From assembly GCA_030695945.1 (NCBI GenBank), contig JAUYOG010000053.1, positions 124,001 to 188,000 of the forward strand: a stretch of DNA of 64,000 nt. The letters run 5' to 3'. Source of the stretch: Ramlibacter sp. Its GTDB lineage: Bacteria > Pseudomonadota > Gammaproteobacteria > Burkholderiales > Burkholderiaceae_C. Of the stretch, positions 51,801 through 55,053 are shown in pieces. Under the pieces are notes generated by a model, which saw nothing but the letters and a program-made list of their open reading frames with translations, was not told the DNA's origin and did no database searches. The translations under genes were made by a program, and so were the position numbers. Position 1 is the stretch's first letter; each line of letters starts with the position of its first letter.

Positions 51801-52117
51801 GCAAGTTTCTCCAAGGTTAAACATAGGGCTCCGGTGCGAAGGGGTCACGTGATGCAGGCAATCTTGTGCTCCCGCCGGATCCCCGGGCCAACCTCCTTTT
51901 GGGAAGTTGTCGTTATTGCACCAGAGGGGCTCTTCTTTCGCAAAGTATTTAGCCTACCGGGGATGGAATCGTTGCACCCTGACAACACAAATCCATTGCT
52001 CAGTGGACCTCACGCAACACCGGTCGCCCACGTTTCGGATCGCAAAAAATCGAGGGCAAACCCTTGCCCGCAAGAGGGCGGACGGCGCGGCCGCCCTGGA
52101 CCCTTAAACTAGGCCCC

Positions 52118-52735
52118 ATGGACCGATTTCTAGGCGCCGCCGACAGCGCCCTCAAGACCCTGTTTGCCAAGCCGCGGGCCCTTCGCGCATGCCCCCTGGT
52201 GCCCGCCGACGAAACACGGCTCGCCTCGGCCGACCGGCGGCACTCGGCCGCGTTGATGCGCGTCAACCATGTCGGCGAGGTATGCGCCCAGGCGCTCTAC
52301 ACCGCCCAGGCCCTGGCCACGCGCGACCCCGGCCTGCGGCGGCATTTCGAGAAAGCGGCGTCGGAAGAGACCGACCACCTGGCCTGGACGGCCGAACGCC
52401 TCGCCGAGCTCGATTCCCGCCCTTCGCTGCTCAACCCCCTCTGGTACGCAGGCGCGTTCGGCCTCGGGCTCGTCGCGGGTCGGCTGGGCGACAGCATCAG
52501 TCTCGGCTTCGTCGTCGAGACGGAAAAGCAGGTGGAAGCGCACCTGCAAAGCCACCTGGACCGGCTGCCCACGGGCGACCATGCATCGCGCGCGATCGTG
52601 GTGCAGATGAAGGAAGACGAAGCCGTGCACGCCGCGCAGGCACTGCAGGCGGGAGGCGTCGAGCTGCCGCCGCCCGCCAAGGCCTTGATGCGCGCTGCCG
52701 CGAAGGTCATGACGACCACCGCGCACTACATCTGA
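52118..52735 (+). CDS. coq7: Demethoxyubiquinone hydroxylase (Coq7 family)
   Basis: [74 protein letters not shown]. Confidence 0.93.
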
Positions 52736-52810: not shown

Positions 52811-53260
52811 TCAGGCCGCCAGCAACTCGAAACTGGTCGTGATCTCCGCCGTCTTGCCCAGCATGATGGTGGCGGAGCAGTACTTCTCGTGGCTCATGGC
52901 GATCGCGCGCTCCACGGCCGCTGCCGGCAGGTCGCGCCCCGTCACGGTGAAATGCATGTGGATCTTCGTGAACACCTTCGGGTCCGCCGGCGCGCGCTCG
53001 GAAGTGAGCTTCACGGAACAGCCCCGCACATCGTGGCGGCCCCGCTTGAGGATCAGCACGACGTCGTAGGCCGTACAGCCCCCGGTGCCGGCCAGGACGG
53101 TCTCCATGGGCCGCGGCGCGAGGTTCTGGCCCCCGTTCTCCGGCTTCGCGGCGTCGGGCGCGCCATCCATCACCAGGACGTGGCCAGTGCCGGTTTCAGC
53201 GATGAAGCCCATTCCCGAACGTGCTCCCGTGTTTCCCGTCCAACTCACCGTGCATTCCAT
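52811..53260 (-). CDS. OsmC-family protein
   Basis: METVLAGTGGCTAYDVVLILKRGRHDVRGCSVKLTSERA. Confidence 0.9.
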   Translation of the reverse strand: MECTVSWTGNTGARSGMGFIAETGTGHVLVMDGAPDAAKPENGGQNLAPRPMETVLAGTGGCTAYDVVLILKRGRHDVRGCSVKLTSERAPADPKVFTKIHMHFTVTGRDLPAAAVERAIAMSHEKYCSATIMLGKTAEITTSFELLAA

Positions 53261-53381
53261 CGTTTTTCACCCCATCAAAGGCGCTTGCCTCGAATAAATT
53301 CCGCTAATGCGGCGCTGTTTGTCTCACCTTGAGACAGATGAGCGTGCTGCAACGCAACAAAGTTCGGGCTATACTGATTTC

Positions 53382-53475
53382 GCAGCATAACCAATCGGTG
53401 ATGCCCCTCTTGTCTCCTCCACCTCCTCCTATGGTGGATTCAGCCCCCAGGCCGCAAGGTCCGGGGGCTTTTTTC
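53382..53475 (+). ncRNA. Candidate sRNA with CCUCCU loop and Rho-independent terminator
   Basis: -10 TATACT at 53370-53375; stem TCCACC/GGTGGA with loop TCCTCCTAT; terminator AGCCCCC..GGGGGCTTTTTT. Confidence 0.5.
53442..53474 (+). terminator. Rho-independent terminator upstream of ilvA
   Basis: AGCCCCCAGGCCGCAAGGTCCGGGGGCTTTTTT. Confidence 0.85.
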
Positions 53476-53508
53476 CGCCTGTGACCCGCCGCTTATGATG
53501 CTTTTGTC

Positions 53509-55053
53509 ATGAAAAAGCACCTCACACCCGCCGATTACCTCAAGAAGATCCTCACGGCCCGGGTGTACGACGTGGCGGTGGAGTCGCCGCTGGAGCCCGC
53601 GAAGAGCCTGAGCCGGCGCCTGCACAACAAGGTGCTGCTCAAGCGCGAGGACCAGCAGGCGGTGTTCAGCTTCAAGCTGCGGGGCGCCTACAACAAGATG
53701 GCGCACCTGACGCCCGAGCAGCTCAAGCGTGGCGTGATCTGCGCCTCGGCCGGGAACCATGCCCAGGGCGTCGCCATGGCGGCGCACCGCATGGGCGCAC
53801 GCGCCGTGATCGTCATGCCGACCACCACACCGCAACTGAAGATCGACGGCGTGAAGACGCTCGGCGGCGAGGTCGTCTTGCATGGCGACAGCTATTCCGA
53901 CGCCTACGTCCGTGCGCTGGAGCTGGAACAGCAACAGGGCCTGACGTTCGTGCACCCGTTCGACGATCCGGACGTGATCGCCGGCCAGGGCACCATCGCG
54001 ATGGAGATCCTGCGGCAGCACCAGGGACCGCTCGACGCGGTGTTCGTCGCGATCGGCGGCGGCGGCCTCGTGTCCGGAGTCGCCAATTACATCAAGGCCG
54101 TGCGCCCGGAGATCAAGGTCATCGGCGTGCAGATGAACGATTCGGACGCGATGTCGCGCTCGGTCGCCGCCAACAAGCGCATCACGCTGGCGGACGTGGG
54201 CCTCTTCTCCGACGGCACCGCCGTGAAACTGGTCGGCGAGGAAACCTTCCGTGTGGCGCGCGACCTGGTGGATGAATTCATGACGGTGGACACCGACGCC
54301 GTCTGCGCCGCGATCAAGGACGTCTTCATCGACACGCGCAGCATCGTCGAGCCCGCCGGCGCGCTCGCGGTGGCCGCGATCAAGCAGTACGTAGCCCAGA
54401 AGAAGACGCGCGGCGAAACCTACGCGGCCATCCTCTGCGGCGCCAACATGAACTTCGACCGCCTGCGCTTCGTCGCCGAGCGGGCCGAGGTGGGCGAGGA
54501 GCGCGAGGCCCTGTTCGCCGTGACCATCCCCGAGGAACGCGGCAGCTTCAGGCGCTTTTGCGAGCTGATCGGGACGCTGCCGGGCGGCCCGCGCAACGTG
54601 ACCGAATTCAACTACCGCATCAGCGACGCGGCGCAGGCCCATGTCTTCGTGGGCCTCACCACGCACGGCAAGGGCGAATCCGGGAAGATCGCCGCCAACT
54701 TCAGCCGCCATGGCTTCGACGCACTGGACCTCACGCACGATGACCTGGCGAAGGAACACATCCGTCACATGGTGGGCGGCCGCTCGTCGCTGGCGCTGGA
54801 CGAACGGCTGCTGCGCTTCGTGTTCCCCGAGCGGCCGGGCGCCCTCATGAAATTCCTTTCGTACATGAGACCCGGCTGGAACATCACCCTGTTCCACTAC
54901 CGCAACCAGGGCGCCGACTACGGCCGCATCCTGGTGGGGCTGCAGGTGCCCAAAACCGACAACAGGGCCTTCAAGGAATTCCTCGAGTCGCTGGGATACC
55001 CTTACGTCGAGGAAACCGGCAACCCTGTCTACCGGTTGTTTCTGCAGACCTAG
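53509..55053 (+). CDS. ilvA: Threonine ammonia-lyase, biosynthetic
   Basis: LKREDQQAVFSFKLRGAYNKM; CASAGNHAQGVAMAA; two C-terminal ACT-like domains. Confidence 0.96.
   Translation: MKKHLTPADYLKKILTARVYDVAVESPLEPAKSLSRRLHNKVLLKREDQQAVFSFKLRGAYNKMAHLTPEQLKRGVICASAGNHAQGVAMAAHRMGARAVIVMPTTTPQLKIDGVKTLGGEVVLHGDSYSDAYVRALELEQQQGLTFVHPFDDPDVIAGQGTIAMEILRQHQGPLDAVFVAIGGGGLVSGVANYIKAVRPEIKVIGVQMNDSDAMSRSVAANKRITLADVGLFSDGTAVKLVGEETFRVARDLVDEFMTVDTDAVCAAIKDVFIDTRSIVEPAGALAVAAIKQYVAQKKTRGETYAAILCGANMNFDRLRFVAERAEVGEEREALFAVTIPEERGSFRRFCELIGTLPGGPRNVTEFNYRISDAAQAHVFVGLTTHGKGESGKIAANFSRHGFDALDLTHDDLAKEHIRHMVGGRSSLALDERLLRFVFPERPGALMKFLSYMRPGWNITLFHYRNQGADYGRILVGLQVPKTDNRAFKEFLESLGYPYVEETGNPVYRLFLQT

Follow-up and report, generated by a model that had tools for sequence, protein, structure and literature searches.

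Among the closest described relatives of the small RNA (sRNA) analysed here are the double-hairpin RNAs of Burkholderia (ncS03/05/27/62, bdhR1), which, like S17 of Bordetella, are included in Rfam family RF02278 and were mapped by dRNA-seq in B. cenocepacia (PMC5688073). In B. cenocepacia, these RNAs were more abundant in biofilm and in glucose medium, 55-80% of their predicted contacts fell at ribosome-binding sites, and overexpression of ncS27, a 92-nt RNA that is processed to a short form and has also been studied by Northern blot, slowed growth (PMC5688073). S17 of Bordetella pertussis is an Hfq-dependent sRNA that is processed by RNase E to 67 nt and represses a sigma54 activator; its promoter, PS17, has the -35 hexamer TTGCAT and the -10 box TACTAT separated by a 17-nt spacer, and its authors postulated an unidentified repressor of PS17 (PMC11722255). 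Exponentially growing E. coli tolerated S17 without toxicity, which means that the RNA need not be a general anti-Shine-Dalgarno (anti-SD) poison. Two more distant systems bear on architecture and control. NmsR of Neisseria carries two anti-SD motifs that, as established by mutagenesis, repress TCA-cycle mRNAs at their SD sequences (PMC5362039), and MmgR of Sinorhizobium meliloti is repressed by PhaR (AniA) via a TGCACCGCAGCA box that was bound in EMSA (PMC12542648).

The RNA and its family

We analysed a 64-kb window, meaning the whole stretch of DNA under study, from a Ramlibacter sp. assembly that is 79% complete; the locus lies on the + strand (Table 1). Scanning the window against Rfam 15 returned RF02278, 'Betaproteobacteria toxic small RNA', at 59.0 bits (cut-off 50; E 2.6e-9 in the whole window). 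The match was full-length (model positions 1-64 of 64) and showed the family hallmarks of two hairpins, a CU-rich 5' strand and loop, and a U-tract. This genome holds one copy, and matches were present in 127 of the 151 genomes of the family, in 128 of 200 in the order sample and in 58 of 59 of the genus; it is this last count together with the covariance-model match, not the motif counts in the window, that excludes chance. We regard it as virtually certain that the RNA belongs to RF02278 and hence is an already known kind of sRNA. The first-pass annotation had proposed a candidate sRNA resembling CU-rich burkholderial sRNAs and had suggested a covariance-model search; the above-cut-off match bears out the resemblance and the sRNA itself, but not its newness, since it is a clear RF02278 member. 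The other Rfam 15 match in the window was an FMN riboswitch (RF00050, 17264-17452, 84.6 bits).

Table 1. Features at the sRNA locus, in window coordinates; the last row gives examples from phasin loci of related genomes
Feature	Position	Strand	Basis or remark
coq7, demethoxyubiquinone monooxygenase	52064-52735	+	NF033656; conserved neighbour
osmC-family gene	52811-53260	-	PF02566, NF008009; conserved neighbour
Putative PhaR/PhbF-type palindromic operator, TGCTGCAACGCAACA	53345-53359	+	Overlaps -35 region; consensus fit and conservation
-35 hexamer CTGCAA	53347-53352	+	17-nt spacer to -10; sequence
-10 box TATACT	53370-53375	+	Sequence
Predicted primary transcript	53382-53474	+	~93 nt; 5' end placed from the -10 box
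SL1, 5' hairpin (GCATAACC..GGTGATGC)	53385-53404	+	Outside the Rfam model
RF02278 core	53411-53474	+	5' end is the counterpart of the Bordetella processed short form S17S
Anti-SD 1 (UGUCUCC), single-stranded	53411-53417	+	Unpaired in minimum free energy structure, between SL1 and SL2
SL2 hairpin, TCCACC (53418-53423) / GGTGGA (53433-53438)	53418-53438	+	Fold and covariation
Anti-SD 2, SL2 loop TCCTCCTAT (RNA UCCUCCUAU)	53424-53432	+	Sequence and fold
SL3, intrinsic terminator with U6 tail	53442-53474	+	AGCCCCC..GGGGGCT at 53442-53469, six T at 53469-53474; sequence and fold
Likely separate ilvA -10, TATGAT	53494-53499	+	9 nt before ATG
ilvA, threonine ammonia-lyase	53509-55053	+	TIGR01124, 805.6 bits; outside the RNA
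Phasin-linked RNA, examples	L102:2145-2220; L105:2136-2212		From phasin loci L092-L115

The TATACT box, the TCCACC/GGTGGA hairpin with its loop, the CU run preceding it and the terminator were all found where the first-pass annotation had placed them, and its estimate of ~90 nt agrees with a predicted RNA of 93 nt; it had missed SL1 and the palindrome over the -35 region. Folded from 53382, the RNA is predicted to form three hairpins, SL1, SL2 and SL3, at -38.7 kcal/mol (z -3.68; 0 of 200 shuffles as stable), and the 64-nt core gave z = -4.1 in a shuffle comparison. A simple promoter and terminator scan of the window listed neither the promoter nor the terminator of the sRNA, because the -35 hexamer departs strongly from TTGACA and mismatches interrupt the terminator stem; in relatives, this hexamer reads TTGCAA or TTGCAT. 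The first anti-SD stretch opens a CU run, TGTCTCC(TCC), at 53411-53420, 5' of the SL2 loop that holds the second. Sequence and fold thus agree with the earlier description of a discrete, separately terminated sRNA showing two anti-SD stretches, one single-stranded and one in a loop. A U6 terminator tail is also the usual Hfq-binding end, and by analogy with its relatives this trans-acting sRNA probably binds Hfq.

Conservation follows the same architecture. The block GTCTC..TC was invariant across 60 aligned homologues. SL2 pairs were counted on anchored arms (the MAFFT alignment is ambiguous in the SL2 loop), and among 231 distinct cores each of the six positions was paired in 91-100%. Pair 5 exchanged C-G, U-G, U-A and A-U, with 227 cores paired as against a mean of 200 and a maximum of 207 in column shuffles, and pair 3 changed from C-G to U-A. 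Most Ramlibacter loci retain SL1 but build it from other base pairs (e.g. GCATAACGA/TCGTTATGC and GCATAGCGA/TCGCTA.GC), and a leader of 0 to ~60 nt separates SL1 from the core.

Judged by core sequence and coq7 neighbourhood, the RNA is the S17 orthologue, and the Bordetella and Achromobacter loci were also found by the core pattern. Shared with S17 are the UGUCUCCUCCACC core, the coq7 neighbour, a longer precursor, a -35 within a TTGCAN box and a 17-nt spacer; S17L, however, is 190 nt long as against ~93 nt here, the BvgAS link is specific to Bordetella, and ilvA lies downstream in Ramlibacter. The ncS RNAs of B. cenocepacia likewise have the core, the two hairpins, the CU-rich strand and loop, and their own promoter and terminator, and ncS27, at 92 nt and processed, is much like the ~93-nt RNA with predicted processing here, whereas that species has four copies to the one in this Ramlibacter genome and PhaR control was not proposed there. 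The plan of SL1, anti-SD 1, SL2 with an anti-SD 2 loop and SL3 terminator is also that of NmsRA and NmsRB, which differ in being a tandem pair with published control by RelA (PMC5362039), while the RNA here is single and PhaR is the proposed regulator. Membership of the NmsR family (RF02877) was rejected because the score, 22.4 bits, falls well short of the cut-off of 52 (aligned 53380-53474); the three-stem plan is what the two share.

A putative PhaR operator at the sRNA promoter

PhaR is a PHB-binding repressor and thereby a sensor of the storage plastic PHB; it can act as an activator too, and phasin genes are its known targets. Footprint-backed consensus sequences have been published for PhbF (PhaR) of H. 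seropedicae, TG[N]TGC[N]3GCAA (PMC3206438), and for PhaR of Bradyrhizobium (B. diazoefficiens), TGCRNYGCASMA (PMC6201568). The palindrome at the sRNA promoter, which has the TGCRNYGC form, fits the PhbF consensus exactly and on both strands. It fits the Bradyrhizobium consensus except for an A at position 10 instead of C/G, and an A at this position also occurs in several of the listed PhaR target sites (PMC6201568).

In an initial comparison of 89 loci, 83 carried the motif TTGCANYGCANCA with at most two mismatches, as against ~6% of shuffled upstream regions, and we found the exact box in 69 of 80 named loci. The spacing from box to -10 was 10 nt in nearly all Ramlibacter loci, and the pattern of a box with a -10 at 4-13 nt had a single site in the whole genome, which is this sRNA. 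Motif counts in the 64-kb window were not significant (PhbF, 3 vs 1.2 expected; PhaR, 4 vs 2.7 expected), and the operator claim therefore rests on comparative evidence. As a positive control, the phasin (phaP) promoters of 24 family genomes carried the same words, usually twice in tandem, as did most phasin promoters order-wide; the assembly under study, being 79% complete, yielded no phasin gene, and relatives served as the control.

The PhaR gene is present in this genome. We then compared box and gene across the RNA-carrying genomes, with PhaR taken from a PF07879 search and the box sought, at up to one mismatch, in the 220 nt that precede a copy of the RNA. The box was present in 52 of 56 PhaR+ genomes and in 3 of 25 PhaR- genomes of the order sample (Fisher p 7.5e-13), and in 3% of shuffled sequences. 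Two of the three PhaR- genomes with a box are assemblies only 85-87% complete, and the four PhaR+ genomes without one include relatives of PhaR- genomes. Counted by family, most members had the box in 16 of the 17 families that were PhaR+ throughout and in none of the 7 that were PhaR- throughout (p 2.3e-5), although the PhaR- families may form one clade, so that the association may reflect few independent events. In PhaR- genomes, an inverted repeat like ATTAGN6CTAAT lies at the sRNA -10 (26 of 33 loci vs 3 of 74 PhaR+; L124-L201, e.g. L176 and L191). Its presence in place of the PhaR box suggests a different regulator in these genomes.

It could be argued that the RNA is an RF02278 sRNA whose TTGCANYGCANCA motif is a mere -35 or upstream promoter element, or the site of another regulator, with PHB uninvolved. 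Many loci do use TTGCAA or TTGCAT as their -35 hexamer, the PhaR operator at the sRNA promoter is a prediction, and MEME returned an unassigned upstream motif for three of the B. cenocepacia copies (PMC5688073). We nevertheless consider this reading unlikely, as the whole palindrome is conserved beyond the hexamer and sometimes lies upstream of a separate -35, the box is lost where PhaR is lost, and the same words recur at phaP promoters.

Our preferred explanation, to which we assign a probability of roughly 75%, is a trans-acting sRNA of the RF02278/S17 family that has its own promoter and terminator, represses by anti-SD pairing and is controlled by PhaR; taken by itself, the PhaR link, which is new as far as we searched, seems likely from the sequence comparisons. 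A sigma70 promoter would drive the sRNA and its own terminator would end it. RNase E would probably trim it at UU-GUCUCC, near 53410/53411, to ~64 nt, as for S17, and the trimmed sRNA would then be loaded on Hfq. Many mRNAs would be blocked in translation when its free 5' end and SL2 loop pair with their ribosome-binding sites. For relatives, published work has shown that the RNA is expressed, depends on Hfq, is processed by RNase E, represses at ribosome-binding sites and slows growth; for Ramlibacter, we infer that PhaR binds, which way it controls the sRNA and what the targets are. Bound over the -35, PhaR would repress the sRNA. Accumulation of PHB would titrate PhaR and release the sRNA. 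Under carbon excess, the sRNA would then mask SD sequences in mRNAs for uptake and metabolism and dampen uptake and central metabolism. MmgR provides a precedent for PhaR control, although it is alphaproteobacterial, belongs to an unrelated RNA family and targets phasin mRNAs.

The kind of RNA is known, and the new part is the conserved putative PhaR box at its promoter, which would tie it to carbon storage. As to the control of RF02278 RNAs so far, the S17 study postulates a repressor and the Burkholderia study leaves an upstream motif unassigned; PhaR would be a concrete answer. The published PS17 -35 TTGCAT and -10 TACTAT match Achromobacter loci in which TTGCAT is the start of the box TTGCATCGCACAA, and in Bordetella loci, too, this -35 falls at the start of the box; PhaR is a candidate for the postulated PS17 repressor. 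If PhaR control is true, the wide retention of a 'toxic', growth-slowing RNA would be explained by its use as a brake when carbon goes to storage, and the RNA would be a betaproteobacterial counterpart to the PhaR-controlled MmgR of Sinorhizobium.

A second RNA linked to phasin genes

Many genomes of the genus contained a second, sub-threshold RF02278 match of about 30-35 bits. Where phasin loci were compared, this RNA followed the stop codon of the phasin gene at a distance of 10-142 nt. It consists of TTGTCTCCTCGGGTCC.., a hairpin without an anti-SD loop, and a terminator, and it shares the 5' seed UUGUCUCCUC with the RF02278 sRNA. Under a strict rule, 19 of the 24 loci contained it and a further three had a visibly degenerate version, and it was also found after phasins in some other families. 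This may be an undescribed 3'-end-derived sRNA, and in the incomplete literature collection searched we found no description of it and no report joining PhaR to RF02278. The shared seed in the 3' RNA of a PhaR-controlled mRNA supports, without proving, a connection to PHB. We lean, with less assurance than for PhaR control of the sRNA, towards a two-RNA response to PHB storage in Burkholderiales. Here PhaR would repress the RF02278/S17 sRNAs directly, the second RNA would be released from the 3' end of the PhaR-controlled phasin mRNA, and the two together would lower uptake and catabolic translation as PHB accumulates, with PhaR then a candidate repressor of PS17.

Neighbouring genes and readings tied to ilvA or to cuckoo RNAs

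The order coq7-osmC-sRNA-ilvA was kept in nearly all Ramlibacter loci and in other loci of the family. Among the 80 named loci, coq7 or osmC lay upstream in 73 and ilvA downstream in 29, with ilvA downstream in no locus named Alcaligenaceae; outside Comamonadaceae-type genomes, coq7 and osmC remain beside the RNA and ilvA is absent. The link to ilvA drawn in the first-pass annotation was right as to position, but it is limited to part of the order. In most Ramlibacter loci we found CTTATSAT ~8-13 nt before the ilvA ATG, despite a gap between terminator and ilvA that is ~35 nt here and reaches >250 nt in other loci. This suggests that ilvA has its own leaderless-type promoter in Ramlibacter, and a leaderless ilvA would leave no SD there for the sRNA to mask.

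These observations bear on a further reading, in which the RNA is a transcription attenuator or leader peptide of ilvA with a 27-codon ORF (MPLLSPPPPPM...) reading through the terminator. The short distance from terminator to ilvA speaks for it, as does an ORF that is open in the window (a 51-codon TTG ORF in the same frame, which contains an ATG at 53401). The open frame is nevertheless not coding, because the leader varies in length and the loop length is not constant modulo three (17/9/4); an in-frame start was present in only 11 of 30 Ramlibacter loci. The leader ORF also has no run of Ile, Val or Thr codons, the RNA is kept where ilvA is missing, the gap to ilvA varies as given above, and a TATSAT element of its own precedes ilvA. 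Attenuation of ilvA is thus extremely improbable for this locus, and as a general function it is excluded by synteny, frame and the likely separate ilvA promoter.

CcsR/cuckoo RNAs of Rhodobacter and rhizobia carry CCUCCUCCC-type anti-SD loops. Despite its CU-rich anti-SD loops, the RNA has next to no chance of belonging to this alphaproteobacterial family, to which the earlier annotation had likened it: no cuckoo-type family matched at E <1 in Rfam 15 (which may hold no cuckoo model), a DUF1127 gene was absent from the two flanking genes tested (the neighbours being osmC and ilvA), the core and the stems match RF02278 from one end of the model to the other, and with family, architecture, context and lineage all different the likeness is in mode of action only.

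RF02278 itself has expanded in one lineage, as some genomes carry 8-9 copies (G007: L150, L155, L156, L161; G178: L013, L133, L138, L142). Several of the extra copies in multi-copy genomes have no clear PhaR box.
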